DNA from: Cryobacterium sp. HLT2-28 | Lineage (GTDB): Bacteria > Actinomycetota > Actinomycetes > Actinomycetales > Microbacteriaceae | Length of the DNA: 64,000 bases | NCBI RefSeq assembly: GCF_004402495.1 | Contig: NZ_SOFH01000022.1 | Coordinates: forward strand, 1-64,000 | Reading direction: 5' to 3' | In this document: positions 1,032 to 64,000 of the stretch, piece after piece | Layout of the letters: each line of letters opens with the position of its first letter | Numbering within the stretch: the stretch's first letter is position 1 | Position numbers and translations under genes: made by a program | Notes under the pieces: generated by a model | What the model was told of the DNA's origin: nothing | The model's database searches: none | What the model saw: the letters and a program-made list of their open reading frames with translations, nothing else

Positions 1032-1113
1032 GGTGTGCTCCAAACGATACCCCGAGCACCCGGGGCAGACTGAATTGCGTTCCCGTGTCAAGCAGTGCAT
1101 CAAGACAGGATTG

Positions 1114-1138
1114 GGTGCCCCTGGAGGGATTCGAACCC
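1114..1138. repeat. Distal attachment-site repeat (copy of tRNA-Arg 3' end)
   Basis: The 25 bases here are identical, in the same orientation, to 14479-14503, where they form the 3' end of tRNA-Arg(CCU). Identity stops sharply: the base after the repeat is G at 1139 and C at 14504. The sequence at 1139-1180 does not complete a tRNA: the T-stem pairs G49 and G50 of the real tRNA are lost. It therefore reads as a recombination junction rather than a second tRNA gene. Confidence 0.75.
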
Positions 1139-1282: not shown

Positions 1283-2302
1283 CTATTGGTTGGCAAAGGC
1301 CGAGTCGAAAGACGACGCGGGACGTGGCCACAGAAGCGACCGCACGAACCCGATTGCCTCGCTCGCACCATGCAAACGATCCATACCGGCGTCTTCCCAC
1401 TCGATCGAAATTGGACCCGAATACCCAATCGATTCGAGCGCTCGGAAGGCGTCCTCCCAGGGCACGTCACCGCGTCCGGTCGAGACGAAATCCCAACCAC
1501 GACGCGGGTCGCCCCAGGGCAGATGCGAACCCAGGACTCCGGCACGACCATTGCTCGGGCGCAGGCGAGTGTCCTTGCAATCCACGTGGTAAATGCGGTC
1601 TTTGAAGTCCACGATGAACCCCACCGGATCGATGTTCTGCCACATCATGTGACTGGGATCCCAGTTGAATCCGAATGCGGACCTGTGGTCGATTGCCTCC
1701 AGGGCTCGCACGCTCGACCAGTAGTCGTAGGCGATCTCGGACGGATGCACCTCATGGGCGAATCGCACTCCCTCGGCATCGAAGACGTCGAGGATCGGAT
1801 TCCACCGCGCAGCGAAGTCCTCAAACCCCTCCTCGATCACTGAGGCTGAAACCGGGGGAAATTGGGCCACGTATGGCCAGATCTTCGAACCGGTGAACCC
1901 AACGACGACATCCACCCCGAGTTTGCGCGCGACCCGCGCCGAACGCTTCATATCCTCGGCCGCCCGCCGCCGGACTCCCTCAGGATCCCCGTCGCCCCAG
2001 GTGGAAGACCTCACGATTGCCTTGTGGCGAAAGTCGATCGGGTCGTCGCAGACAGCCTGTCCGGTGAGGTGGTTGGAGATAGCGAAGGCCCGTAGATTGT
2101 TGCGCTCGAGGATCTCGAGGCGCGATGCGAGGTAGGCGTCGTCCTGGTCGGCACGTTCCAAGTCAAGATGGTCACCGGATGCCGCGATCTCCAGGCCGTC
2201 GTAACCCCAGCCCGCCGCGAGCTTTGCCACCTCTTCGAATGGCAGATCTGCCCACTGTCCAGTGAACAAGGTCACAGGGCGTTTTGCTGTAAATTCGCTC
2301 AT
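1283..2302 (-). CDS. Sugar phosphate isomerase/epimerase-family TIM barrel, candidate 3-keto-sugar eliminase or hydratase
   Basis: About 339 residues of the xylose-isomerase-like AP-endonuclease-2 TIM-barrel fold. Visible metal-site style segments are GLEIA near the N-terminus, AHEVHPSEI mid-protein, [19 protein letters not shown] and [10 protein letters not shown] near the C-terminus, all typical of the IolE/IolI/IolH group. It is the last gene of a minus-strand operon with two Gfo/Idh dehydrogenases and a sugar ABC importer. In levoglucosan clusters two proteins of this family carry out beta-elimination and hydration of 3-keto intermediates; which step this one would do is not readable. I place the start at the ATG at 2302 (GAGAGAG upstream); an in-frame ATG at 2323 is the alternative. 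Confidence 0.8.
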
Positions 2303-2356
2303 GGTCTTCACTCTCTCGCTCATTCATCGCTTGCCTGCAGAAAGACGAATCCGCGC

Positions 2357-2701
2357 TCAGGGGCGCGTTTCGCCGCGCGGCTCGACGGGTCGGAGCTCGG
2401 ATACGCCGAACGGACCGGCCAACCACTCGTCCGACAGCGCAAAGAAGCTGCGGGCGTGATCCTTCTCATTGTGGTCCGCCAACGCCTGTCGGGTTGTCCA
2501 CTCTTCATAGAGCACGAATCGCTCGGGGGCGGCCCGGTCCACGAAAACCGAGTAAGCAATGCAGCCCTCGTCGTTCCGGCTGAGTAGCTGGAGACTTGCC
2601 AACTCTTCCTCCAGCCGTGCACCGAAGCCCGGCTTTGCTGTGAAGACCGGCATCAGAATCACAGTTTCGCGACCGGGCTTCTGTTCTTGGTCGACACTCA
2701 T
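2357..2701 (-). CDS. Small ABM-domain (YgiN-like) protein in the sugar operon
   Basis: A 114-residue protein of the antibiotic-biosynthesis-monooxygenase dimeric alpha+beta barrel family. It shows the family pattern: an opening beta strand (VILMPVFTAKPG), then NDEGCIAYSVFVD, then FVLYEEWTTRQALADHNE with the conserved E-x-W and H. The start at 2701 is supported by AGGAAG about 5 bases before the ATG. The family includes quinol and anthrone monooxygenases and many proteins without a known reaction. Its position between the dehydrogenase and the second TIM barrel, 28 bases past the dehydrogenase stop, says it is co-transcribed; its job in sugar use is unknown. Confidence 0.8.
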   Translation of the reverse strand: MSVDQEQKPGRETVILMPVFTAKPGFGARLEEELASLQLLSRNDEGCIAYSVFVDRAAPERFVLYEEWTTRQALADHNEKDHARSFFALSDEWLAGPFGVSELRPVEPRGETRP

Positions 2702-2729
2702 GGTCTTCCTACCTCCACTGGCATCGGGT

Positions 2730-3902
2730 TCAGTTCTCGATCGCGGGGACGTCGACCCAGGCGCCGGTCTCCCCGGACTCGATGATCGCGTCATCGATCA
2801 ATGCGATCTGGTAGCCGTCGGCGAAGTTGGGGCTGACGGTGCCGCCTTCGACGATCGCCGTGAAGAAGTCGTGAGCCTCGATGATTTTCGTCTCGCCGTA
2901 CCCGATGCCCAACGCCGGGATCGGCCAAAGCGCAGCTCCGTTGGGATGGGCGGGACCGGTGTAGATCGTGCGAAATCCGCGACGATCCCCCGGATCGTTG
3001 GCGAAGCAGACCTGAAGCTCGTCACGACGCTCATAGTTGAAGATGATGCTTCCTCCCGTCCCATGGATCTCGAAGGTGATGAAGTTGTTTCGTCCGTGGG
3101 CATTCCTCGTCGCCTCGATGGAGCCGACCGCACCGTTCGAGAATCGGATCATCGTCATCACCTCGTCGTCGACATCGACCGCCCCACGAGGCCCCTCGCC
3201 GCCGGTGACGTTCCCGAGGGCATCTGCGCCACTCACCTGGATCGGACGTTCCGTAATGAAGGTGGACAGAAGTGCGTTTACCTGCGCGACGTCGCCGACG
3301 AGGTAGCGGGCCAGGTCGATCACGTGTGTGGCGATGTCACCCAGCGCGCCCGAGCCCGCGATCTTCTTCTGGAACCGCCAGGAGAGGGGAGAATTCGGGT
3401 CGGCGCTCCAGTCCTGGAGGTAAGTTCCCCGGAAGTTCGTGATCCGACCGATTGCCCCTTCCTCGATGAACTTCTTTGCCAGCGCGACTGCCGGGGTGCG
3501 GCGGTAATTGAATGCCACCATGTGGACGACCCCGGCATCCTTCACCGCGTCGTACATCTGTTTCGCCTCCTCGCTGGTGCGGGCGAGCGGCTTTTCGCTG
3601 ATGATGTGCTTGCCGGCCTTCGCCGCGGCAATGGCGATTTCCGCGTGCAGGTGGTTGGGTGTGGCGATGTCGATGACATCGATTTCGGGGTCTTCAACGA
3701 CCTCTCGCCAGTCAGCGGTGTACTTCTCGAAACCGAAGCGACGCGATGCCTCCTCGGCCAGTGGCGCGGTGGCCTCAGCAATAGTCTTTCGCACCGGCAT
3801 GGCGGGGGCAGGCCAGAAGAACATGGGCATGGCCGCGTAAGCGAGGGAGTGCGCCTTGCCCATAAACCCGGCTCCGATGAGCCCGACGTTCAGGTTTTCC
3901 AT
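2730..3902 (-). CDS. lgdA: Gfo/Idh/MocA dehydrogenase, probable levoglucosan dehydrogenase
   Basis: 390 residues with an N-terminal Rossmann fold (GLIGAGFMG at residues 7-15) and the catalytic EKP motif at 103-105, followed by the family's C-terminal alpha/beta domain. The segment AHSLAYAAMPMFFWPAPA and the later stretches NYRRTPAVALAKK and TYLQDWSADPNSPLSWRFQ agree, from memory, with the crystallised levoglucosan dehydrogenase of a Pseudarthrobacter. That enzyme uses NAD+ to oxidise C3 of 1,6-anhydroglucose. Length matches. The ATG at 3902 is preceded by GAGAAAGAAAG. The gene sits mid-operon with partner enzymes and an importer. If the resemblance were only to the wider family, the next best call is a generic 3-position sugar dehydrogenase. 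Confidence 0.75.
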   Translation of the reverse strand: MENLNVGLIGAGFMGKAHSLAYAAMPMFFWPAPAMPVRKTIAEATAPLAEEASRRFGFEKYTADWREVVEDPEIDVIDIATPNHLHAEIAIAAAKAGKHIISEKPLARTSEEAKQMYDAVKDAGVVHMVAFNYRRTPAVALAKKFIEEGAIGRITNFRGTYLQDWSADPNSPLSWRFQKKIAGSGALGDIATHVIDLARYLVGDVAQVNALLSTFITERPIQVSGADALGNVTGGEGPRGAVDVDDEVMTMIRFSNGAVGSIEATRNAHGRNNFITFEIHGTGGSIIFNYERRDELQVCFANDPGDRRGFRTIYTGPAHPNGAALWPIPALGIGYGETKIIEAHDFFTAIVEGGTVSPNFADGYQIALIDDAIIESGETGAWVDVPAIEN

Positions 3903-3956
3903 GATCTTTCTCTTTCTCTTGTTGGACGCTGTGTTAGTGGACTGCAGGCCTACTGA

Positions 3957-4778
3957 CTACTGCTCGAGGAGCCGGTCCAGGTAGGCCTTGGAGATCTCTG
4001 CCGCGCGACGCGGGTCCCCGTCGTAGGAGTCGAGCTCGACGAGAAGCCAACTGTCGTACCCGCTCTCCTGTATCGCCCTGATGATGTCCGGGAAGTCGAG
4101 GTCGCCCTCCCCGAGGGGGAGGAACTGAAATGGCTCGCGTCGAAAATCCTTGAGGTGAACGTGACGAATCCGATCCGAGTGCGCGCGGATCATGGTCGCG
4201 GGATCGCCGCCTCCGGCGGCAAGATGGGCCGTATCGGGGCAGAACCCGATCCTGGTCAAGTCCATGAGTTTTGCTAGCTCATCAGGGTTTTCGACGATCG
4301 TGCTGAGATGCGGATGATAGCTCGCCGAGAGTCCGAAGCCCTCCGCGATGTCAGTGACGCGATCGAGGCTTTCGCCCAGACGCAGATAGTCGTCTTCGCT
4401 GGTTCCGGCCGCGCGACGCGCCCCCCCACCGACCACGAGTCGCTCGGCACCGAACTGTGCCGCAAGTTCCGCCGCACGGGTAATCCGGTGCAGCTCGTCG
4501 GGAAGGATGTCGGCATAGATGAAGTTCGCCCCCGTATAGACGCTCACGAGCTCGAGCTTCGCGTCAGCGAGAAGCTGGCGGAATTCCTCCGGTCGGTCCG
4601 CATATTCGAGCAGGTTTCCATCGAACATCTCAGTGCCCTCGTACCCGGCCGCGCTGATGTCGCGAATGGCGGTCTCCATCGAGCCATTCGTGCGGTAGAA
4701 GAGGTCTTTGACACTCGTGACCCCTGTCGCGTCGCCGACGACGCCTCCCCAGGTGATCGTGCAGTAGCCCAAACGCAT
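3957..4778 (-). CDS. Sugar phosphate isomerase/epimerase-family TIM barrel, second copy in the operon
   Basis: A 273-residue TIM barrel of the AP-endonuclease-2 / IolE-like family. It carries GYEGTEMFDG (first metal ligand region), SYHPHLSTIVEN, GFCPDTAHLAAGG, RHVHLKDFRRE and LLVELDSYDGD, the usual Glu/Asp/His metal-binding strands. It shares the fold but little sequence with the protein at 1283-2302, so the two probably catalyse different steps. Start at 4778: the ATG shares its first base with the TAA stop of the upstream dehydrogenase gene, and GAGAAAGG lies just upstream, so translation is likely coupled. In the levoglucosan route it would be the beta-eliminase or the hydratase (inference). 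Confidence 0.8.
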   Translation of the reverse strand: MRLGYCTITWGGVVGDATGVTSVKDLFYRTNGSMETAIRDISAAGYEGTEMFDGNLLEYADRPEEFRQLLADAKLELVSVYTGANFIYADILPDELHRITRAAELAAQFGAERLVVGGGARRAAGTSEDDYLRLGESLDRVTDIAEGFGLSASYHPHLSTIVENPDELAKLMDLTRIGFCPDTAHLAAGGGDPATMIRAHSDRIRHVHLKDFRREPFQFLPLGEGDLDFPDIIRAIQESGYDSWLLVELDSYDGDPRRAAEISKAYLDRLLEQ

Positions 4779-5923
4779 TATCGTTGCCTTTCTCTCGCGG
4801 TCGGAACCGTTATCAATTCGGGGACGGATACCCATTCATCCGCTGCGGCTGACCTCAGAACCGCGTCGGTTAGTTGCGCAGCGCGCACCCCGTCAAGAAA
4901 AGTGGGCAGCCCTTCAACTGAATCGCCCGCTATGGCGCGGTGGGCATCCGTCACGAAGGCGGTGAAAGCATCCTGATAGCCCTGCGGGTGCCCGGAGGGC
5001 ACGAGCGCATATCTCCGTGCCTCGTCGGCCGATAGACTCTCCGACCCCACCGTGATGGCGCGGGTCGAGTCGACTTCGCCGATCCACAGCGTCTCCGGAT
5101 GTTCCTGGTCGAAGCGGAAGGACGCATTCGTCCCGTCAAAGGAGAACGAGAGACGGTTCTTTCGACCCGGCGAGACCTGACTGACGACAAGAGATCCAAG
5201 AGCCCCCCGGTCGGTTTCGAAGACCACGGCCGCGCCGTCCTCGGTGTCGACCCGTGTCGATCCGCGCCGGGCAGTTCGTTCGCCAAAAGCGCGGGCCGTC
5301 TTCGCCATCACCCGGGTGATCCGGTGACCGGTAACGAACTCCGTCAGGTCACACCAGTGCACACCGATGTCCCCAAAAGCCCGGGAGGAACCGCCGAGCA
5401 GGGGGTCGATACGCCAATTGGTCGTCGCGGGATCGGCAAGCCAATCCTGAAGGTAGGAACCGTGCAGCAGCCAGAGCGGTCCGGCTTCGCCCGAACGGAT
5501 CCGCGCTCGCGCCTCACGGACGGCCGGATAGAAGCGGTAGACGAACGGGACTGCAGCCACCCGGCCGGATTCCTCGGACAGCGCCGCTAGCTCGACCGCA
5601 TCCTCCACCGTCGTCGCTAGCGGTTTCTCGCAGATCACGGACTTCCCCGAGGCGATCACCTGTGCGGCAAAGTCGGCATGCGTCGAATTCGGCGTGCAGA
5701 TGTGAACTACATCGATGTCGTCGCGTGCGATCAGAGCTTCGGGCGAGTTGCTCGCCTCTTCCGCACCGAACCGAGTTGCGGCAGCCTGCGCCGCTTCGGG
5801 GCTTCGACTGGCGACGGCAGCGATGGTGCCACCGGACATCCTGATGGCATTCGCGTGGACCGTTCCCATAAAGCCAGTGCCGATGATGCCGGCGCGGAGG
5901 CGAGGCCCGGGCTGCGCGATCAT
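4778..5923 (-). CDS. Gfo/Idh/MocA dehydrogenase, candidate 3-keto-glucose reductase (LgdC-like)
   Basis: 381 residues. The N-terminal NAD(P) fold shows GIIGTGFMG at residues 12-20 and the EKP motif at 99-101; the C-terminal half has SYLQDWLADP, GDIGVHWCDL and SFSFDGTNASFRF, typical of the family. It is paralogous to the dehydrogenase at 2730-3902 but clearly divergent, which suits a pathway that begins with one C3 oxidation and ends with a C3 reduction. The start ATG overlaps the permease stop by 4 bases (ATGA), and its stop overlaps the next gene's start, so the three genes form a tightly coupled unit. The reductase role is inferred only from the gene set. Confidence 0.75.
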   Translation of the reverse strand: MIAQPGPRLRAGIIGTGFMGTVHANAIRMSGGTIAAVASRSPEAAQAAATRFGAEEASNSPEALIARDDIDVVHICTPNSTHADFAAQVIASGKSVICEKPLATTVEDAVELAALSEESGRVAAVPFVYRFYPAVREARARIRSGEAGPLWLLHGSYLQDWLADPATTNWRIDPLLGGSSRAFGDIGVHWCDLTEFVTGHRITRVMAKTARAFGERTARRGSTRVDTEDGAAVVFETDRGALGSLVVSQVSPGRKNRLSFSFDGTNASFRFDQEHPETLWIGEVDSTRAITVGSESLSADEARRYALVPSGHPQGYQDAFTAFVTDAHRAIAGDSVEGLPTFLDGVRAAQLTDAVLRSAAADEWVSVPELITVPTARERQR

Positions 5924-6906
5924 TTCCGACGCGCCAAGGCAACAGCCAGAATGATGATCGCACCGCGCACGATCTGCTGCTGACTACTGTCCAGACCGGC
6001 CAGCACCAGCCCGTTGTTGATCAGTCCGATGAGCAATGCGCCGAACATCGTGCCGATGACGGTGCCGCTTCCTCCAAAGAGGCTTGTGCCGCCCAGGATC
6101 ACCGCGGCGATCGCGGAGAGCTCATCCCCGTCTCCCCACTGGAATCGACCGGACTGCAGCCGACCGGCGTAGAGCATGCCGGCGATACTTGCGACGACTC
6201 CCGACAGCAGGAGCACGGTGAATTTGATGCGCTTGGTGTTAATGCCTGTGAAGTCGGCCGCTTTGCGGTTGCCTCCTGTGGCGAGCACCTGGCGCCCGAA
6301 CTTGGTGCGAGAGAGCACGAGCGCACCAGCGGCGACAAACACGGCAGCCCAGATGACGAGGCTCGGCACCGGCCCGATATTTCCGGAACCGAACATGTTG
6401 TTGAAAGCGTCGCTGAGGATTGGCTGGGGAGCGGAGTTCGTGATCCATTGGGCAGTACCCACGGCGACGCCCAACATGCCGAGCGTGACCAGGAAGGACG
6501 GGATACCCAGGAGACTGACCAGTGTTCCGTTGATCCCGCCCACGACGACCCCGACCACGAGTCCTGCGGCGATTCCCGGAACCACGCCGAAGGCGGAGAT
6601 CGACATTGCGGTGACGACGCTGGAGAGGCCGGCGATGGAACCGACGCTGAGGTCGATCTCGGCTGCGGAGATGACGTAGGTCATCCCCACGGCGATGACC
6701 ATGATGGTCGATGTCTGCCGAAGGATGTTCAAGAGGTTCGTCGCGGAGAGGAAGCCCTGGTTGCCCAGAAGGATCGCGAAGAAGATGAAGACAACGACAA
6801 AGCCGATGTAGATGACGTAGCGTCGCCAGTCGATCCCGGCCAGTGTCGTGGAGATGGTGCGCTTGGGCGCGGCGTCGATCGACTGAGCCGAGGTGGGGGT
6901 TTGCAT
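5920..6906 (-). CDS. Sugar ABC transporter permease (RbsC/BPD_transp_2 family)
   Basis: 328 residues of mostly hydrophobic helices, about eight to ten membrane spans, with the family landmarks GMTYVISAAEIDLSVGSIAGL near residue 80-100 and the loop AIAAVILGGTSLFGGSGTV in the C-terminal third. It forms the membrane channel of a monosaccharide-type importer. AAGGAGT precedes the ATG at 6906, and only 2 bases separate it from the stop of the ATPase gene. Only one permease gene is present, so the channel should be a homodimer, as in ribose transporters. Confidence 0.9.
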   Translation of the reverse strand: MQTPTSAQSIDAAPKRTISTTLAGIDWRRYVIYIGFVVVFIFFAILLGNQGFLSATNLLNILRQTSTIMVIAVGMTYVISAAEIDLSVGSIAGLSSVVTAMSISAFGVVPGIAAGLVVGVVVGGINGTLVSLLGIPSFLVTLGMLGVAVGTAQWITNSAPQPILSDAFNNMFGSGNIGPVPSLVIWAAVFVAAGALVLSRTKFGRQVLATGGNRKAADFTGINTKRIKFTVLLLSGVVASIAGMLYAGRLQSGRFQWGDGDELSAIAAVILGGTSLFGGSGTVIGTMFGALLIGLINNGLVLAGLDSSQQQIVRGAIIILAVALARRK

Positions 6907-6908
6907 GA

Positions 6909-8417
6909 TCAGACTCCTTGGACTACTAGTTGGAGTGCTTCCTCGTCAACGATCTCGTTGCGGGGAATGTCACGGATGACGGAACCGTCCCGAACGACCA
7001 ACACGCGATCGCTGATCGCGAGAAGTTCGGGATATTCCGAGGAAATGATGATGACGCCCTTGCCTTCGTCGGCGAGGGCGCGCACCCGGTCGAGGATCTC
7101 GCTCTTGGTACCGATGTCGACGCCCGCCGTGGGCTCGTCGAGGATGAGCACATCCGGATTCGTGCCAAGCCACTTGGCGAGCACGACCTTCTGTTGGTTG
7201 CCACCGGAAAGGAGACTCACTGCTCGACCGGGGTTGTCGACCTTCACTGCGAACTGCTTGATGAGGGAATCTGCGAGCAATTTGCCCTTTTCCGCGCTCA
7301 GGAAGGGGCCGTTGCCAATCTGGCCGAGCAGCGGCAGCAGCAGGTTGTCTCGAACGGAGTGATCGAGCACGAGCCCCTGATCTCGGCGATCCTCGGGGAT
7401 GAGTGCCAGTCCCGCATTAATCGCGCGTTGCGGGGAGGACAGCCTGGCTTTCTTTCCGCGGATCAGCACTTCACCGCTGTCGATTCGATCGATACCGAAA
7501 AGTGCTCGGGCCAACTCGGTCCTGCCGCTGCCCATGAGCCCTGCCAGCCCAATGATCTCACCGGCGTGCAGGGTGAAGGACACTTCCTTGACACGGGTGC
7601 CGGCGCTCAGCCCACGCACTTCGAGCAGTGGTTCGGTGTCGGATTCTGCCGCCTCCCGGACGCGATAACTCAGCTGGCCCTCGATCTTCTTCCCAACGAT
7701 CCCCTCAATAATCTGTTCCGGCGTGATCTCTGTTAGCGGCTCGGTGAACAGCTTGCGTCCATCACGAAGAACGGTGATCCGGTCTGCGATCCGGTAGATC
7801 TCATCCATGCGGTGCGAGATGTAGATGATGGAGATGCCGCGTGCCTTGAGACGGCCGATGAGCGCAAAGAGCGCCTCGGTCTCGTGCTTGGCGAGGCTCG
7901 CTGTTGGCTCGTCCATGATGAGCACGCGAGCGTTCTGCGCGAGTGCCTTGGCGATTTCGGTCAGTTGCCAGTACGCGGTTCCCAAGCGCGCGACCTCGGC
8001 GCGCGGGTCCACTTCGACCTCCATGTCCGCAAATATCTCTCGTGCGCGGCGTCTGGCTTCGCTATCGTTGATCAGGCCAGCTCTATTCAGCGACTCTGCA
8101 TTGAGGAAGATGTTCTGCGCGACGGTGAGGCTGGGAACGAGGCTGAATTCCTGAAACACCATTCCGATTCCGGCTGTCTTCGCGGCCTGGATCGACGTTA
8201 TCTTCACAACCTCACCCTCGACCAGAATCTCTCCGGAGTTGGGCTGGTAGACGCCTTGCATGATCTTCATGAGTGTCGACTTGCCCGCACCGTTGCCGCC
8301 GGCAAGAGCATGAACCTCGCCGCTTCGGACGTCGAAGTCGACGTCGGTGAGAACGGTTACCCCGTTGAAGCTCTTGGAGATGCCACGCATCTCGACTGCA
8401 TTTACCGTCGCGTTCAT
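6909..8417 (-). CDS. Sugar ABC transporter ATPase with two nucleotide-binding domains (RbsA/MglA type)
   Basis: 502 residues comprising two tandem ABC domains. Domain 1 has Walker A GGNGAGKST at residues 40-48 and Walker B VLIMDEPTASL; domain 2 has a degenerate Walker A (GLMGSGRTEL), an intact signature LSGGNQQKVVLAKWL and Walker B VLILDEPTAGVD. A degenerate second Walker A is normal for this family. The usual Glu of the first Walker A (GENGAGKS) is Gly here. AAGGTGG precedes the ATG at 8417. It energises the permease encoded directly downstream. Confidence 0.92.
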   Translation of the reverse strand: MNATVNAVEMRGISKSFNGVTVLTDVDFDVRSGEVHALAGGNGAGKSTLMKIMQGVYQPNSGEILVEGEVVKITSIQAAKTAGIGMVFQEFSLVPSLTVAQNIFLNAESLNRAGLINDSEARRRAREIFADMEVEVDPRAEVARLGTAYWQLTEIAKALAQNARVLIMDEPTASLAKHETEALFALIGRLKARGISIIYISHRMDEIYRIADRITVLRDGRKLFTEPLTEITPEQIIEGIVGKKIEGQLSYRVREAAESDTEPLLEVRGLSAGTRVKEVSFTLHAGEIIGLAGLMGSGRTELARALFGIDRIDSGEVLIRGKKARLSSPQRAINAGLALIPEDRRDQGLVLDHSVRDNLLLPLLGQIGNGPFLSAEKGKLLADSLIKQFAVKVDNPGRAVSLLSGGNQQKVVLAKWLGTNPDVLILDEPTAGVDIGTKSEILDRVRALADEGKGVIIISSEYPELLAISDRVLVVRDGSVIRDIPRNEIVDEEALQLVVQGV

Positions 8418-8476
8418 TTCACACCACCTTTCGGGACGGGTGCGGCGCGAGAAGCTCGCGCCGCACCGGCCGCTTG

Positions 8477-9643
8477 TTACTTCTTGTAAGAGTTGGCGAC
8501 GTCGGCCGGCGGGTCAGCGTGGTAGACCTGCTTCCACGCCTCAAGGACGTTCGAGTGGTCCACCGGCAGAGCTGGGACCGCAACGTACGCGGGCACGGAC
8601 TTGCCGAGCAGCGCGAGGGCTCCAAGCCGCGCCTCAGTAATGCCCTGGTCGAATGGCCGCTGGGCTCCCAAGCCAACAATGAGCTGGTTCTTAGCAAGGG
8701 CGATGGCGACGTTCGTTCCAAGATCTTCGGTGGCGATCTTGAGGTCCGAGTTGCCAGCAGCACGAGCGGCAGCCATGACACCCTCGGCTGGCACATCCCA
8801 GACCCCCCAGATTCCTGAGAGGTCAGGGTGTTTGGTCAGCATCGCGCTCGCCGCCAACTGTGCCTGACCCGCAAAATCAGGGCCGGCGATTCCAGTCTCC
8901 TGCACGATCTTGATGTCGGGGAATTCCTTGGTAATCGTTGCCTTGAAACCCTCGTAACGCTGTTTGGTCACGAAGAAGTCGGCCTGGTGGAATATCACGC
9001 CGATCTTGCCCGTGCCACCGAGAGCCTTGGCCATCTCATAGGCGGAGACGACGCCGTTGCCGTAGTTGTCCGCGGAGACGACCGATGCGTAGTCCTTGCC
9101 GGCCGTCATGCCGTTCGGGACGTTGTCCATGAAGACCAGCTTGGTTCCGGCCGCCGCGACAGCCTTGAACGCAGATTCTGTCGCGACCGGGTCGGTCGGG
9201 ATGGAAACGATGATGTTGGGCTTCTGGGTCATGATCGTCTCGAGCTGCGACACCTGCAGATCCGGCTTGAAGTCCGCATCCGTCGTGGCGATCACCTTGA
9301 TCCCGAGCTTGCCGAACTCACTCTTGAGTCCCGCAATCTGGGCGGTTGCCCAGTCGTTTCCGCCATAGTGCATGGCGATGGCCGCTGTCGCACCGAGCGC
9401 TTTGACCTGAGCGATCTCGGCGGGGGTCATGTCCGCGGACGATGCTGGCGATGCCGTTTCGCCGTTCGGGCCCTCGCTCAGAACATCGCCTTTGACAATG
9501 TCGGCGAGAGCCTTCGTTGCTTTGAGGACAGAAGCATTCTGCGCGTCGGGACCTGCGGAGGAAGTGCCGGCGGAAGAGCTGCAGCCGGCGACGGCGAGGA
9601 GCACCGCCCCCGCCGCTGCAATCAATGCAATTGACTTTTTCAT
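8477..9643 (-). CDS. Sugar ABC transporter substrate-binding lipoprotein
   Basis: 388 residues with a lipoprotein signal peptide: lysines at positions 2-3, a hydrophobic run and the lipobox LAVAGC, lipidated at Cys21. The mature part is a type-1 periplasmic-binding fold of the ribose/galactose class (KVIATTDADF, NIIVSIPTDP, LVFMDNVPNGM, YEGFKATI, GIWGVWDVPAEGVMAAA). It is anchored outside the membrane and delivers the sugar to the permease. It is the first gene of the operon and faces the ROK regulator; GGAG lies 8 bases before its ATG. Ligand specificity cannot be read; the operon suggests an anhydro-sugar. Confidence 0.9.
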   Translation of the reverse strand: MKKSIALIAAAGAVLLAVAGCSSSAGTSSAGPDAQNASVLKATKALADIVKGDVLSEGPNGETASPASSADMTPAEIAQVKALGATAAIAMHYGGNDWATAQIAGLKSEFGKLGIKVIATTDADFKPDLQVSQLETIMTQKPNIIVSIPTDPVATESAFKAVAAAGTKLVFMDNVPNGMTAGKDYASVVSADNYGNGVVSAYEMAKALGGTGKIGVIFHQADFFVTKQRYEGFKATITKEFPDIKIVQETGIAGPDFAGQAQLAASAMLTKHPDLSGIWGVWDVPAEGVMAAARAAGNSDLKIATEDLGTNVAIALAKNQLIVGLGAQRPFDQGITEARLGALALLGKSVPAYVAVPALPVDHSNVLEAWKQVYHADPPADVANSYKK

Positions 9644-9869
9644 GAATATTCTCCAATGAATATCGGGGGACGCCCTCTGAAGGGGATGTCACTGACCGCG
9701 TCAAGCGAGACGCCTCGGAATCAGCAGCTGTCCTGATCATCACCATCGTTGGGACACGATCGCGACATCAGTATGACACGAACTACGCATCTTTTGCCAG
9801 AAAAAGTGAAAAGTTGGCTTAAGATAAACTATTCGCGACCTCAACTGGCGCAAAGACGCATACATTGGG
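9644..9869. promoter_or_regulatory. Divergent promoter region of the sugar operon and its ROK repressor
   Basis: These 226 bases separate the binding-protein gene (minus) from the ROK gene (plus). On the plus strand TTGCCA (9794-9799) and the AT-rich TAAGATAAACT (9820-9830) are possible promoter elements, though their spacing is not canonical. Before the binding-protein gene the octamer ATATTCAT occurs twice around the ribosome binding site. I see no strong palindromic operator, but a ROK repressor next to its target operon normally binds here (family knowledge). Confidence 0.5.
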
Positions 9870-11114
9870 GTGGCTAATAAGTCGCGTCGATCAGAAGGGA
9901 ATCGGTGGGTTATGTCATCGGTGGGCGGAGCGTATGAGCTGCTGCAGGTTATGCGGGACGGAAAACCGCGAACTCGCTCGCAGCTAGCGGACATCACCGG
10001 CATGGCGAGAACGACGGTCAGTCTGCGCATAGATGCCCTTCGGGAACTCGGCCTGGTTGTGCCGGTGTCTGATGCGACCTCGACCGGCGGGCGACCCTCT
10101 TCCCAGATCGCATTCAATCCGGGCACGCGGGTGGTCGCGGCGGCTGACCTCGGCGCTACGCACGCGCGGATCGGCATCTGTGATCTTTCCGGGGCAGTTC
10201 TCGCCCGTGTCAGCACTCCGCTGGAGATCACAGACGGGCCCGAGAAGGTGCTCGCCAGCGTAAGGGCGCAGATTTCTGCGTTGCTCGCGCAAATCGGTCG
10301 CCCCCAGGCGGACCTGCTGGCCATCGGACTCGGTCTGCCTGGCCCGGTCCAACATAGTTCGGGGAGACCGGCACGGCCGCCGCTGATGCCGGGTTGGGAT
10401 AATTTCGACGTTCCGGGCGAAATGCGAAAGTCCTTTGCCGTCCCGGTACTCGTTGACAACGATGTCAATATCATGGCCCTCGGCGAATACCGGAGTCGTC
10501 AGCCGCCAACCGAGAACATGATCTTCGTCAAAGTCGCCACCGGCATTGGCTCAGGGATTATCAGCGACGGCAGACTGCAGCGCGGTGCCGATGGCGCGGC
10601 CGGCGACATTGGCCATATTCCGATCGCTCGCGGCGCTGGAGTTCCGTGTCGTTGCGGCAAGACAGGTTGTGTAGAAGCAATAGCTGGTGCACCGGCCATC
10701 ACCGCTGCCCTCCACACCGCTCGTCCGGACATCGCGTCGGCAAGTGACCTCATCGACCGGGTACGGGCCGGTGATCTTGACGCGATTCGCGCCGTGCGCC
10801 AAGCCGGCCGAGACATCGGCGAGGTCCTGAATACGTGTGTGAGCATTGTGAACCCGTCGGTCATCGCGATCGGGGGATTGATGGCTCAAGCGGGCGAGCA
10901 TCTGCTCGCCGGAATCCGCGAGGTGGTCTACGGGAGCTCCACGCCACTGGCAACGGAACACCTCGTGATCGAACAATCCAGGAGCGGGCCGGATGTGGGC
11001 CTCATTGGCGCGAGCATCCTGGCCATCGAGCACGCTCTGGCTCCCGAACGCCTCGACTCGAAGCTGCGGAACGTCGACGCTGAGTTCGCGAGTCATTTCC
11101 ACAACATGCTGTGA
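9870..11114 (+). CDS. ROK-family transcriptional repressor of the sugar operon
   Basis: 414 residues. Residues about 15-70 form a winged helix (RSQLADITGMARTTVSLRID is the recognition region); the rest is a ROK sugar-kinase-like domain with AADLGATHARIGICD, the ROK signature region VATGIGSGIISDGRL and the zinc motif CRCGKTGCVEA. NagC/XylR-type ROK repressors bind DNA near their operon and release it on binding a sugar or sugar phosphate. It is divergent from the operon, which fits local control. The GTG at 9870 has no clear ribosome binding site; the in-frame ATG at 9912 has AGAAGGGAA upstream and may be the real start. Confidence 0.88.
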   Translation: MANKSRRSEGNRWVMSSVGGAYELLQVMRDGKPRTRSQLADITGMARTTVSLRIDALRELGLVVPVSDATSTGGRPSSQIAFNPGTRVVAAADLGATHARIGICDLSGAVLARVSTPLEITDGPEKVLASVRAQISALLAQIGRPQADLLAIGLGLPGPVQHSSGRPARPPLMPGWDNFDVPGEMRKSFAVPVLVDNDVNIMALGEYRSRQPPTENMIFVKVATGIGSGIISDGRLQRGADGAAGDIGHIPIARGAGVPCRCGKTGCVEAIAGAPAITAALHTARPDIASASDLIDRVRAGDLDAIRAVRQAGRDIGEVLNTCVSIVNPSVIAIGGLMAQAGEHLLAGIREVVYGSSTPLATEHLVIEQSRSGPDVGLIGASILAIEHALAPERLDSKLRNVDAEFASHFHNML

Positions 11115-11510: not shown

Positions 11511-12623
11511 TTACGCGCCGCGCGCGCGGGTGCCTGGTCTGAGGATCGTGTCGGCCACCCGCATCACCTCATCGATCAGCGCGAGAGCGTCGTCGTGGCG
11601 GATCAGCGGCGAACCCTGCCCGGCCCACAGCGACATCAGGTCGTCGATGCCGCGTTCGGCCGCGGTAGGCCGGAAGCGGCCGGTCACCCAGTTCTGAACG
11701 GGGAAGGCGGCAATCCGGCCCGAGGCGTCGAGGTCTCGCGTGATGCGGTTCGGGATGCCGCGGGCGAGCCTCCCGCTGAGGGCGCGGGTCAGCACGGTGT
11801 GGCCGGCCTCCTCACCGCGTAACGCCGCCCGGTACACCGGTGCGGCCGCGGACTGCTCCGTGGCCAGAAAGGCCGAACCGATAACCGCCGCACCGGCCCC
11901 GAGCGCGATGGCCGCCGCCAGACCGCGTCCGTCTGCGATTCCACCGGCGGCAATGACGGGCACCGAGACGGCGTCGACGATCTGGGGCACGAGTGCGAAG
12001 GTGCCGACGAGGGAGTCCTCCGGGCTGGCCAGGAAGGACACGCGGTGCCCGCCCGCCTCCATCCCGGTGGCCACGATGGCGTCCAGGCCCGCCGCGTCGA
12101 GGGCCACGGCCTCGTCGACGGTCGTTGCGGTGCCGACCGTGAGGATGCCGCGCGAGCGCGCGGCATCCAGCACAGGCGCGGACGGCACGCCGAAGACGAA
12201 GCTGAGCACCGCCGGCCGCGCGTCGAGCGCCGCCGTGATCTGATCGTCGAAGGAGGGGAACCAGACTGCCGGGCGCTGCGGGAGCGCGATCCCCAGTTCG
12301 TCGAAGTAGGGCCTCAGGGTGTCGAGGCACTCGTCGAAGCCGTCGCCGTTCGTTCCGGGGTCCTCGCCGGCACCGAGCGGCAGCCAGAGGTTGAGCGCAA
12401 AGGGTTTCGAAGTCGCCAGCGCCAGTTCCCGTGCGACCTGGCTGATCCGATCGGGGCCGTAGCCGAACAGCCCATAGGAACCGAGTCCGCCCGCCTCGCT
12501 GACGGCGGCGGTCAACCGGGTGTTGGAGAGTCCGCCGAACGGGGCGAGCACGATCGGGAGGTCAATGCCGAGCAGCCGCGTTGCGGAGCTGCGGGCCCAG
12601 GAGTTTTCGAGGTTCACATTCAT
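11511..12623 (-). CDS. Nitronate monooxygenase family protein (NMO/2-nitropropane dioxygenase)
   Basis: 370 residues of an FMN-dependent TIM barrel. It has LPIVLAPFGGLSNTRLTAAV at the N-terminus, the FMN-phosphate loops IVATGMEAGGH and VPVIAAGGIADGRGLAAAIA, and GAGAAVIGSAFLATEQS. The His in AGGH corresponds to the catalytic His of class I NMOs. Such enzymes oxidise alkyl nitronates, and some relatives have other flavin roles. A strong AAGGAGATTG leads to the ATG at 12623; the frame extends upstream to 12824 but without domain content. It stands alone within the tRNA-Arg island. Confidence 0.85.
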   Translation of the reverse strand: MNVNLENSWARSSATRLLGIDLPIVLAPFGGLSNTRLTAAVSEAGGLGSYGLFGYGPDRISQVARELALATSKPFALNLWLPLGAGEDPGTNGDGFDECLDTLRPYFDELGIALPQRPAVWFPSFDDQITAALDARPAVLSFVFGVPSAPVLDAARSRGILTVGTATTVDEAVALDAAGLDAIVATGMEAGGHRVSFLASPEDSLVGTFALVPQIVDAVSVPVIAAGGIADGRGLAAAIALGAGAAVIGSAFLATEQSAAAPVYRAALRGEEAGHTVLTRALSGRLARGIPNRITRDLDASGRIAAFPVQNWVTGRFRPTAAERGIDDLMSLWAGQGSPLIRHDDALALIDEVMRVADTILRPGTRARGA

Positions 12624-12658
12624 CAATCTCCTTCTATAGCCGAGATGCCCTGCGACAC

Positions 12659-12686
12659 CGTGACCCCCGATCGCGCGGGGGTCACG
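12659..12686. terminator. Perfect 10-bp hairpin, possible transcription end
   Basis: CGTGACCCCC (12659-12668) pairs perfectly with GGGGGTCACG (12677-12686) around an 8-base loop. No T-run follows on either strand, so it is at best a weak terminator. It lies just past the stop codon of the dehydrogenase relic at 12700-12771 and was probably that gene's transcription end. Confidence 0.5.
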
Positions 12687-12699
12687 CTGTGCCGACGAG

Positions 12700-12771
12700 T
12701 TAGTACTGGATGACGACGCGGCCGTCGACCTTGCCGTGACGCGTCTCATCGAGAACGGTGTTCTCGACAGC
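12700..12771 (-). pseudogene. C-terminal stub of a zinc-type alcohol dehydrogenase
   Basis: Read on the minus strand, 23 codons before a TAA give AVENTVLDETRHGKVDGRVV then IQY. This is the typical last strand of medium-chain zinc alcohol dehydrogenases and quinone reductases (H-G-K-x-x-G-R-x-V). The frame is closed by TAG directly upstream, and no other part of such an enzyme is visible in the next 600 bases, so the rest was deleted. It marks a deletion scar inside the island. Confidence 0.6.
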
Positions 12772-12774
12772 CTA

Positions 12775-13363
12775 CGTCGTCGTGCGTTCCCGGCAGCTCG
12801 TACCGGACGCCGCGGCGGCAGCAAGGCGGCTGGCCGACCATGCGGCTGGTCCCGCGTCTCACAAGAGGAACGGGCGTGGACGCAACAGAGGTTTGTGGTG
12901 ACGAACGGTCTGCCCGCGCCCGAGAAGGTCCTTCGATTTCATTCGGGGATGCTGGCGGATGAAACAGGACAGCCTGTTCACGTTCAGCCTACCGCTCGGG
13001 GGATTCTCGTCGAACGAAGGAGGCACCGGGCTGCGGATGACGCCCGGACCGTGGGGTGGACCGCATGGTGACAGACGCTCACGGTACGCCCGGTGCCGAC
13101 CTGGGCCTGGCGCAGGGGCGTTGGGGCACTGTGGTTGCCGCACCGCGTTGGCAAGGACGCTCTCGGAGTGAACTGATCATCAATTTCGGAACGTCTCCGG
13201 GCCCAACGGGCAGCTCCAGCGGGTTCATTTCGCAGTCGAATGTGGGCTCACCCTGCGATGTTCCCAGGCCGAGGTATCGCCCCAACCGATACGGTCGAAT
13301 CGCGAGAGTGTGAGCTTCTCGTTCACCTCAACCTGCCAGATGCGCCGACCCGGAGAGCTGACA
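12775..13363. other. Gene-free stretch within the island
   Basis: About 590 bases with no open frame that resembles a known protein, no good ribosome binding site except that of the HAD gene at its right end (GGAGAG, 13352-13357), and no clear repeat. Given the dehydrogenase stub on its left, I read it as scrambled remains of deleted genes. Confidence 0.5.
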
Positions 13364-14038
13364 ATGAACAAAACACCATCAGTGATCGTTTTCGATGTCA
13401 ACGAAACCCTCTCGGACATGTCGCCCCTGAAGACCCGATTCGTTGACGTTGGCGCGCCGGACTATCTCGCCCGGGTTTGGTTCGCCGCCCTATTGCGGGA
13501 CGGGTTCGCCCTCGCAGCGGCAGGTGGCAGCGCGAAATTTGCGGTGATCGGCGCCGACGTCCTGCGCGAGGTCCTCCGCGACGTCGCCCTGACCCGGAGC
13601 CTGGATGACGCCGTGACCCACGTCATGGACGGCTTCGCGGGATTGAACCTGCACCCCGACATCGCAGAGGGGATCCGGACGCTGAAAGGCGCGGGATTCC
13701 GGCTCGTGACCTTATCCAACGGGTCCGCGCAGGTGGCCCACGCCCTGCTCACCAAGGCGGAGATCCGAGAGGCCTTCGAGTTTCTCCTCACGGTCGAGGA
13801 CACCACAGCATGGAAACCCGTCCGTACCGCCTACAACTACGCCGCGGATGCCAGCGGGGTCCAGCCGGCAGACATGCTCCTGGTCGCCGTGCACCCCTGG
13901 GACATCCACGGGGCAAGCCGAGCAGGCATGCGCAGCGCCTGGCTGAACCGAACGGCCGCGGTCTATCCCAGCTACTTCACGGCACCGGATTACACCGTTT
14001 CCACTCTGAATGAGCTTGCTTCACGTTTGCTGACGTGA
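13364..14038 (+). CDS. Type II haloacid dehalogenase-like HAD hydrolase
   Basis: 224 residues. Motif I is FDVNETL at the N-terminus with the nucleophilic Asp, motif II LVTLSNGS, motif III Lys in AWKPVRTAY, and a final acidic region near VAVHPWDIHGASRAG. This is the layout of L-2-haloacid dehalogenases (the second motif-I Asp is absent in that subfamily too). It could dehalogenate short acids or act on another small substrate. The ATG at 13364 follows CGGAGAG; an upstream in-frame start at 13310 adds no domain. It is the last intact cargo gene before the integrase relic. Confidence 0.8.
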   Translation: MNKTPSVIVFDVNETLSDMSPLKTRFVDVGAPDYLARVWFAALLRDGFALAAAGGSAKFAVIGADVLREVLRDVALTRSLDDAVTHVMDGFAGLNLHPDIAEGIRTLKGAGFRLVTLSNGSAQVAHALLTKAEIREAFEFLLTVEDTTAWKPVRTAYNYAADASGVQPADMLLVAVHPWDIHGASRAGMRSAWLNRTAAVYPSYFTAPDYTVSTLNELASRLLT

Positions 14039-14442: not shown

Positions 14443-14478
14443 CCCGGAGAAATCCGGCCCCTGCATCCCTTTGTTTTC

Positions 14479-14503
14479 GGTGCCCCTGGAGGGATTCGAA
14501 CCC
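14479..14503. repeat. Proximal attachment-site repeat inside tRNA-Arg
   Basis: Exact 25-base direct copy of 1114-1138. It covers the discriminator, the 3' acceptor strand and most of the T-arm of tRNA-Arg(CCU), the classic target of tyrosine integrases, which leaves the tRNA intact after insertion. Confidence 0.75.
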
Positions 14504-14552
14504 CCAACCGTTTCCTTAGGACGGAACTGCTCTTCCGTTGAGCTACAGAGGC
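14481..14552 (-). tRNA. tRNA-Arg(CCU)
   Basis: Read on the minus strand the gene folds into a full cloverleaf. The acceptor GCCTCTG pairs with CAGGGGC, the D-stem is GCTC/GAGC, and the anticodon loop GTCCTAA gives anticodon CCU. The T-loop is TTCGAAT between GGGGG and CCCTC. The 3' end reads ACCG, so CCA must be added by enzyme. It is the insertion site of the island to its left. Confidence 0.9.
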
Positions 14553-62741: not shown

Positions 62742-62814
62742 GGGCCTCTAGCTCAGTTGGTAGAGCAAAGGACTTTTAATCCTTGGGTCGTCGGTTCGAG
62801 CCCGACGGGGCCCA
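62742..62814 (+). tRNA. tRNA-Lys(UUU)
   Basis: Plus-strand cloverleaf: acceptor GGGCCTC/GGGGCCC (one G-T pair), D-stem GCTC/GAGC, anticodon loop CTTTTAA giving UUU, T-arm GTCGG-TTCGAGC-CCGAC. CCA is not encoded. An integrase gene begins 17 bases beyond its 3' end, marking it as an insertion target. Confidence 0.95.
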
Positions 62815-64000
62815 CCCTTGTATCCCAGTGTTTATGCGGGGAGTACGGTCACTTTCGCTGTGGCCTCAGCGCGCTCTGCCCACGGCGTGCCCACAACTGA
62901 GGGATCGCCGGCGGCACTTAAAGCGTCTCCAACCGCGTCCAGATCATCATCAAACAGGTCGCTATAGACGTCGAGCGTCATTGCGGCCGACTTGTGCCCG
63001 AGCATCCGCTGGACGGCTTTCACGTTCGCTCCAGCGGAAATCGCTAGGCTTGCAGCTGTGTGGCGCAGGTCGTGAGGTGTCAGTCGAGGTAGAGAAGGGT
63101 GTGCTGCCCTCAGCTTGACCATCGCGGGGGTGAACGTTCGGATCCGCCAATTCCTGCTCATGAGCGGCCCACCTTTGGGCGCGGTGAACACGAGATCGTC
63201 GAGAGCCTTCCCTTGGCACCTGGCAGCGAGATCTTCAGCGAGGAACGCCGGAAAGGGAACGCTCCGCAGAGTGTGATTCTTTGGAGTCCCGTAGACCAGT
63301 TCCGATCCGATCAGTACGACCGCCTGCTCGACGCTCACCCGCCGGCGGAGCATATCGAGATCACGAACCCTCACCGCGGTGGCTTCGCCCCATCTGAGCC
63401 CGGTGTATCCGAAGAACAACACCAGATCACGATAAGTGCCGTTATACGCAGCGAGCTCATGCAACTGTGCGTGCGTCAGGTAACCGTGTTTGCGCTGGAC
63501 GATCCGCGGGAGAAGGATACCGTCCGCGACGTTACGCGAGATACGACCGTCTCGCACCGCGTACTTCAGCATCATGGAGAACACCCGGTGGTAATACCGG
63601 ACCGTTCGGGGAGAGACACGCTTCACCTGCTCCGAGATCCAGGATTGTAATCCTGAATGCGTGAGCTCGCCCAACGGCACTTGTCCCCACTTCGGGATGA
63701 TCCTGGCGCGCATGATGCTCTGATAGCTGACATAGGTCGACGGCTTGAGTTGCACTTGGGCCGCGAGCCATTGCTCGCCCCAATCCCCCACAGTCACTCG
63801 CGCTCGGCTCGCCTCAACGAAATCACCGCGCGCCTTCGAGACCTCGATCGACGCCAGGAAGAGCTCCGCCGCCTTCTTGGTCTTGAAGCCTCGCTTATCC
63901 GTCTGGCCGCGGTCAGGCTTTCGGTAACGAACCCTGTAGCGCTTACCGGCCAACGTTTCGTATGGCGTTATCGAACCCACACTGACTCCTTGGTCTAAGG
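62815..64000. mobile_element. Left edge of an integrative element in tRNA-Lys
   Basis: From the tRNA-Lys 3' end to the window end only an integrase gene is seen. Its catalytic C-terminus faces the tRNA, the usual arrangement of prophages and integrative elements. The other end and the cargo lie outside the window, so the type of element cannot be decided. Confidence 0.6.
62832..63980 (-). CDS. int: Tyrosine-recombinase integrase
   Basis: 382 residues. An N-terminal arm-binding domain (YRVRYRKPDRGQTDKRGFKT) and SAM-like core-binding domain (about 60-160) precede the catalytic domain. All residues are present: Arg in TGLRWGEATAV, Lys in YGTPKNHTLRSV, HDLRH, the His in LGHKSAAMT, and Tyr in LDVYSDLF. 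It looks active and of phage/ICE type. The stop lies 17 bases from tRNA-Lys. Confidence 0.93.
   Translation of the reverse strand: MGSITPYETLAGKRYRVRYRKPDRGQTDKRGFKTKKAAELFLASIEVSKARGDFVEASRARVTVGDWGEQWLAAQVQLKPSTYVSYQSIMRARIIPKWGQVPLGELTHSGLQSWISEQVKRVSPRTVRYYHRVFSMMLKYAVRDGRISRNVADGILLPRIVQRKHGYLTHAQLHELAAYNGTYRDLVLFFGYTGLRWGEATAVRVRDLDMLRRRVSVEQAVVLIGSELVYGTPKNHTLRSVPFPAFLAEDLAARCQGKALDDLVFTAPKGGPLMSRNWRIRTFTPAMVKLRAAHPSLPRLTPHDLRHTAASLAISAGANVKAVQRMLGHKSAAMTLDVYSDLFDDDLDAVGDALSAAGDPSVVGTPWAERAEATAKVTVLPA

Follow-up and report, generated by a model that had tools for sequence, protein, structure and literature searches.

A genomic island at a tRNA-Arg gene of a Cryobacterium carries a probably complete levoglucosan catabolic cassette with a candidate hydratase

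The window analysed here is a 64,000-nucleotide stretch (positions 1–64000 of contig C13) of the 3.7-Mb, 32-contig genome of Cryobacterium sp. HLT2-28. Between positions 1283 and 11114 it contains an eight-gene operon on the minus strand and a divergent gene of a ROK-family regulator on the plus strand. In the order of transcription, the operon encodes the substrate-binding protein of an importer (8477–9643; PF13407, 138.1 bits), a sugar ABC transporter ATPase with two ABC domains (6909–8417; two stretches matching PF00005), a sugar ABC permease (5920–6906; PF02653, 146.3 bits), a Gfo/Idh/MocA dehydrogenase (4778–5923), a TIM barrel protein (3957–4778), another Gfo/Idh/MocA dehydrogenase (2730–3902), a small ABM-domain protein of the LsrG/YgiN fold (2357–2701; PF03992, 60.3 bits), and a second TIM barrel protein (1283–2302). 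The regulator (9870–11114) combines a ROK domain (PF00480, 181.6 bits) with an N-terminal helix-turn-helix (HTH_20, 27.8 bits). All these genes are intact in the list of open reading frames, and each exceeds the curated Pfam cut-off of its family. The two dehydrogenases, two TIM barrels, importer and ROK protein of the original prediction were thus recovered at these positions, and the ABM gene, which it had missed, was added.

The permease gene and the first dehydrogenase gene overlap by four bases (5920–5923), and base 4778 is common to the latter and the following TIM barrel gene, an arrangement seen in operons with translational coupling. The gene at 1283–2302 starts with ATG, and use of an alternative upstream ATG would extend it to position 2323. 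The N-terminus of the substrate-binding protein reads as lipoprotein-like. A search for operators in the region 9620–9900 gave no convincing candidate: all it revealed were two short repeats, each in two copies, and an imperfect inverted pair separated by 158 nt. The order from the substrate-binding protein gene to the ABM gene recurs in 27 of the best 80 of 305 lgdA-related loci, and chance grouping of these genes is therefore excluded.

The protein encoded at 2730–3902 can be assigned, on the basis of its sequence, as the levoglucosan dehydrogenase LgdA, as originally predicted. It scores 739.8 bits with the levoglucosan dehydrogenase equivalog NF052479 (cut-off 650), its residues 1–388 align with residues 21–408 of PDB entry 6a3f (E 2e-220), and it contains the AMPMFFWPAPA block. 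Inositol dehydrogenases, whose appearance as best matches had been named in advance as grounds for rejecting the assignment, did not take that place: the inositol 2-dehydrogenase model reached 138 bits, compared with 740 for the levoglucosan dehydrogenase model. The protein shares 317 of 388 residues with LgdA of Paenarthrobacter nitroguajacolicus LG01, including E103, K104, D189 and H193. The two residues named as catalytic by Kaur 2023 (PMC10066097), E103 and H193, are at identical positions in the Cryobacterium enzyme.

The TIM barrel protein encoded at 3957–4778 corresponds to LgdB1, being 77% identical (209/271) to the LG01 protein. Its H155-x-H157, D182, H208 and E248 are invariant among 29 aligned sequences. 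The same H-x-H motif, a spacing of 26 residues from Asp to His, and a subsequent Glu characterise the Agrobacterium tumefaciens enzyme AtOGE, for which His132/His134, Asp163, His189 and a Glu after them were reported (PMC10628242). AtOGE (8bvk) matched LgdB1 with an E of 4.2e-4 by sequence and 6.4e-8 by profile; it was absent from the best 50 fold matches listed and from a second fold comparison. The nearest solved structures were IolE and Art22 (tied) and other PF01261 barrels. The dehydrogenase encoded at 4778–5923 corresponds to LgdC, a glucose 3-dehydrogenase that would reduce 3-keto-glucose; it shares 252 positions (66%) with LgdC of LG01 (381 versus 383 amino acids) and retains E99, K100, D185 and H189. 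LgdC homologues with at least 35% identity were found in 56 of the best 80 of the 305 lgdA loci. Homologues of LgdB1 and LgdC and an importer thus lie beside lgdA, the arrangement that defines an LGDH pathway cluster.

Strain LG01 was isolated on levoglucosan, and 19 of its proteins from two genomic regions, including LgdA, LgdB1 and LgdC, rose on this substrate (PMC10066097). Its operon has the same gene order as that of Cryobacterium from the substrate-binding protein to the ABM gene, and the enzymes are 66–82% identical. However, no match to the TIM barrel protein of 1283–2302 or to the ROK regulator was found in 21 kb around lgdA in LG01; a gene at 2905–3990 on the minus strand of that locus, LacI-like by reading, adjoins the operon, and homologues of the TIM barrel protein (74% and 65% identity) are located away from the lgd cluster. 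The lgdA-lgdB1-lgdB2-lgdC system of Bacillus smithii S-2701M (Kuritani 2020, PMC7676230) likewise comprises four enzymatic steps and an ABC importer, but it has a LacI regulator and a hydratase of the LgdB2 class, for which other Bacillus and Peribacillus loci were compared as stand-ins. Overall, the assignments of LgdA, LgdB1, LgdC, the importer and the ROK regulator hold against characterised or expressed relatives. The predicted four-enzyme route LgdA/LgdB1/LgdB2/LgdC stands for three of its members: the alignments matched LgdA, LgdB1 and LgdC of LG01 and yielded no close LgdB2.

The remaining enzyme, a protein of 339 residues encoded at 1283–2302, is of the SCO6571 type (2zds, E 2.5e-149). 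Over residues 22–333, it also matches AtHYD (8ro4, E 9.1e-38), which the title of the PDB entry describes as a 2-hydroxy-3-keto-glucal hydratase of A. tumefaciens. Its identification as a close LgdB2 was rejected, since it is only 25.5–27.0% identical to four Bacillus and Peribacillus candidates (L072, L077, L079 and L080), picked by position and length to represent the characterised B. smithii protein. It is a distant LgdB2 homologue on a separate branch of the tree. Its E184, D215 and E301 are also present in the LgdB2 candidates and AtHYD, whereas D241, within the segment HVDCKD, replaces the His that precedes KD in AtHYD and the Bacillus candidates; Asp at this position is a feature of its family. 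By analogy, these residues would act as ligands, and given the Asp for His exchange, the metal site may differ from that of AtHYD. The operon of A. tumefaciens to which AtOGE and AtHYD belong (PMC10628242; 8BVK, 8ro4) also proceeds by oxidation, elimination, hydration and reduction with a homologous hydratase, although it was demonstrated on a glucoside, 3-keto-phlorizin, and its elimination enzyme is only remotely similar to LgdB1. Taken together, the 1283–2302 protein is probably the hydratase of 2-hydroxy-3-keto-glucal. It is the leading candidate for the hydration reaction left open by Kaur 2023 (PMC10066097), where LG01 is described as having no LgdB2 and an LgdB3 is proposed, occurring in Actinobacteria and Proteobacteria and never together with LgdB2. 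The candidate hydratase perhaps belongs to this LgdB3 class, and its actinobacterial spread fits.

Copies of the candidate hydratase (at least 60% identity, at least 80 residues aligned) occur in 27 of the best 80 of the 305 lgdA loci, 1.2–8.4 kb from lgdA. Among the 27 loci with the conserved gene order, a hydratase match directly follows the ABM gene in 15, of which 10 extend over at least 329 residues and five are partial (35–138 residues), and does not follow it in 12. A less likely view, to be taken seriously nevertheless, is that the protein of 339 residues is a passenger of the operon, with the function of an epimerase or inosose dehydratase, and that hydration is performed by LgdB1 or occurs spontaneously. 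The many lgdA loci devoid of such a gene, the 126 organisms with LgdB1 only recorded by Kaur 2023 (PMC10066097), and D241 in place of His would agree with it. However, besides the homology to AtHYD, all 20 lgdA-bearing genomes examined have a copy with at least 65% identity. Of these, 19 were chosen because no hydratase match lay within 10 kb of lgdA; in all 19, the copy is located elsewhere. In the family of the host, the hydratase was detected in 18/20 genomes with lgdA versus 179/279 without it, and in the family of LG01, in 8/8 versus 79/141 (lgdA presence thresholds E 1e-100 and 1e-150). The hydratase is thus commoner with lgdA in both families combined (CMH z 3.3, relatedness ignored). 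Two genomes have lgdA but not the hydratase: G113, in which the top LgdA match is only 48% identical, and G166, which is 87% complete.

Since the hydratase is also common in genomes without lgdA, the family is not specific to the levoglucosan pathway. In eight such genomes, which are no random sample because they were picked for a hydratase identity of 82–89%, an LgdC homologue (49–53%) was always found in the same 11–20 kb stretch, adjoining the hydratase in five and 6–7 kb away in three; this association also argues against a passenger role for the TIM barrel. In one locus (L095), genes of a ROK protein, a TIM barrel, a Gfo/Idh protein, an LgdC-like protein and the hydratase lie side by side. 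We read the hydratase and LgdC as a common back end that would finish any route through 2-hydroxy-3-keto-glucal, with a variable front end; the Asp in place of the AtHYD His speaks against this reading. On a tree of 61 hydratase sequences, the Cryobacterium copy groups with those of L039, L058 and Microbacteriaceae. This placement conflicts with LgdA, whose best match is in the locus of Cryobacterium tepidiphilum NEAU-85 (L001), and the hydratase was therefore probably recruited separately from the rest of the cassette.

The ABM protein, which consists of 114 residues, has a homologue in 40 of the best 80 of the 305 lgdA loci, in 39 of them directly downstream of lgdA. A model of its structure (pLDDT 90.3) closely resembles PA3566, Rv0793 and LsrG (TM 0.80/0.93 for LsrG). 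An alignment of the Cryobacterium protein with 19 of the 40 homologues revealed 18 columns invariant in the 20 sequences, including R42, D44, Y50, E66, W68, H77 and H82. LsrG moves a carbonyl, and one may guess by analogy that the ABM protein perhaps acts as a carbonyl-shift isomerase. As a substitute for the hydratase it was discarded, because the two genes do not cleanly exclude each other: counting matches anywhere in the 80 loci, some of which end at contig ends, 15 have ABM and hydratase, 24 ABM only, 14 hydratase only, one ABM and an LgdB2-like gene, 10 an LgdB2-like gene only, and 16 neither. One could tentatively propose, although it seems doubtful, both that the actinobacterial hydration step is a widespread back-end module of SCO6571-type hydratase and LgdC common to several glycoside and anhydrosugar pathways, and that the LsrG-fold protein rescues carbonyl-shifted (2-keto/3-keto) intermediates. 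The main text of PMC10066097 contains neither the word 'monooxygenase' nor the word 'antibiotic', and a repair role, if true, would be undescribed in the text available of that paper and in the related pathway literature as far as covered.

Within the genus Cryobacterium, lgdA was identified in 12 of 57 genomes, and the type with 87–100% identity was limited to the host and a C. tepidiphilum genome (G368). As to the genus itself, a locus from a genome labelled as congeneric with the host (L094) is 92–94% identical in DNA, over a summed 9.7–17.6 kb, to the Cryobacterium loci L069, L070, L071 and L075. The closest LgdA, 87% identical, is that of C. tepidiphilum NEAU-85, whose operon has the same order; however, its ROK gene is located downstream of the hydratase rather than divergently, and its hydratase, 70% identical, belongs to a different branch. 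No tRNA was found in this 21-kb locus. The host genome itself contains a second lgdA (70% identity; C32:131137–132303) accompanied by homologues of LgdB1 (63%), the transporter and the ROK regulator. No separate LgdC or hydratase match was present in the 19.9 kb read there, and the hydratase of the window is the sole match in the genome at E 1e-100; judging from these sequences, the island may complete the second cluster. Gfo/Idh enzymes are often promiscuous, and the presence of a second lgdA, with LgdB1 and transporter homologues of its own, could mean divided labour. Both points would suit an operon dedicated to a different 1,6-anhydro sugar or a glucoside, such as galactosan, mannosan or cellobiosan, and acting on levoglucosan as a side substrate. 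We consider this improbable, given the equivalog score of LgdA, the conservation of its catalytic residues, and an operon arranged as in the levoglucosan isolate LG01.

With a threshold of E below 1e-80, LgdA-like proteins were also matched in 36 plasmid records, and in 14 of these records the identity is at least 60%. Plasmid pAAG24-80 of Arthrobacter agilis (NZ_CP117872.1, 81 kb), from a meltwater pond, has counterparts of all nine genes in an identical order, the ROK gene again being divergent, although the proteins are 37–81% identical, the ROK regulator being lowest, and the plasmid is typed in PLSDB as non-mobilizable. This plasmid twin suggests that the levoglucosan cassette moves.

In the Cryobacterium genome, the operon is enclosed by direct repeats. 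The outer repeat (1111–1138, minus strand, 28 nt) is a copy of the 3' end of tRNA-Arg(CCT) and forms the far border; the inner one (14476–14503, minus strand) overlaps the 3' end of the intact tRNA-Arg gene predicted by ARAGORN (14479–14552, minus strand), the insertion site. The two are identical at 27 of 28 nt (96%) and spaced 13,365 bp apart, and a scan of the whole genome for their 24-mer core, allowing up to two mismatches, gave these two sites only. Other cargo comprises a nitronate monooxygenase-like gene (11511–12824, minus strand; PF03060, 236.5 bits) and a HAD-family hydrolase gene (13310–14038, plus strand; PF00702, 53.2 bits). The G+C content, in 2-kb steps, is 0.60–0.64 up to 11 kb and 0.65–0.72 beyond (to 40 kb).

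The outer repeat is flanked by a HAD gene that is present in 30 relatives in the genus; in 11 of them the tRNA end lies on the same contig within 18 kb, and in the remaining 19 it is farther off or on another contig. Two of the 11 (G355 and G324) represent empty sites, with 14 and 70 bp between the tRNA end and the HAD match, and the other nine have 1.1–17.3 kb there. Nine of the 11 sites were inspected: tRNA-Arg(CCT) was present in all nine and a CHAP-domain neighbour in eight, and no matches to the lgd cassette genes were found. At least two copies of the tRNA end occur in 15 of the 57 genomes, suggesting that it is an insertion hot spot. The direct repeats and the empty sites in relatives demonstrate that the 13.4-kb segment is a tRNA-site genomic island, as had been predicted. 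The genome has six matches to the tyrosine-integrase family PF00589 and five to the serine-recombinase family PF00239, all of them outside C13:1–14503. The island thus shows no integrase match of its own, the mark of an autonomous integrative element, and may depend on mobilisation in trans or represent a remnant. The same lack of recombinase matches would agree with the segment being no island and the tRNA fragment a product of chance or ancient duplication, but the near-perfect repeats, their rarity in the genome and the empty sites make this very improbable.

We conclude that the tRNA-Arg island very probably carries a complete levoglucosan cassette, from import to glucose. From the gene identities, their order and the conserved catalytic residues, we infer the catalytic steps and the regulation in this strain as follows. 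Levoglucosan would be bound by the substrate-binding protein and imported via the ABC permease and ATPase; LgdA would oxidise C3 with NAD+ to yield 3-keto-levoglucosan; LgdB1 would open the 1,6-anhydro bridge by beta-elimination, giving 2-hydroxy-3-keto-glucal; the SCO6571-type TIM barrel would hydrate the latter to 3-keto-glucose; and LgdC would reduce this to glucose with NADH, which would complete the redox cycle. The divergent ROK protein would keep the operon repressed as long as neither the substrate nor a product is present.

Levoglucosan is a sugar from burning plants, and the pathway has already been published in related bacteria (PMC10066097). A literature search found no paper on levoglucosan in Cryobacterium, and a search for levoglucosan together with genomic islands returned nothing on this topic, including in the text available of PMC12169178. 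The pathway itself is known; what is added here is the demonstration of the island at the level of its insertion site, the related cassette on a plasmid, a concrete candidate enzyme for the hydration, and the ABM gene with its conservation. The levoglucosan trait thus sits on a discrete, bordered island in a Cryobacterium, and with this cassette one can test directly how actinobacteria that have no LgdB2 hydrate 2-hydroxy-3-keto-glucal.

A further LgdA, matching the levoglucosan dehydrogenase of the window at 70%, is encoded on another contig of the HLT2-28 genome (C32, 131137–132303; locus L093), together with LgdB1, ABC transporter and ROK homologues of its own. No separate match to LgdC or to the hydratase was found in the 19.9 kb around this second gene. 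The region matches locus L053 of C. ruanii at 92% across about 10 kb.

TIM barrels carrying an AHAQAKD motif represent a third class in lgd loci (L042, L044–L047, L049 and L054), and on the tree they are placed apart from both the Bacillus LgdB2 candidates and the proposed hydratase of the window (1283–2302). LgdA-like genes at 60% or above were present on 14 of the 36 plasmid records with an LgdA-like match, plasmids of Deinococcus, Klebsiella, Shinella and Rhizobium among them.

The island also carries a nitronate monooxygenase-like gene and a HAD gene (11511–14038), and the G+C content of this stretch is higher than that of the lgd operon. The right-hand end of the window contains a tRNA-Lys gene and, directly after it, a tyrosine-integrase gene (together 62742–63980; integrase 62832–63980, PF00589), and the pair probably marks a further integrative element. 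Two to four copies of the tRNA-Arg(CCT) 3′ end, with at most two mismatches, were detected in 15 of 57 genomes of the genus, in which this site is likely to be an integration hot spot.
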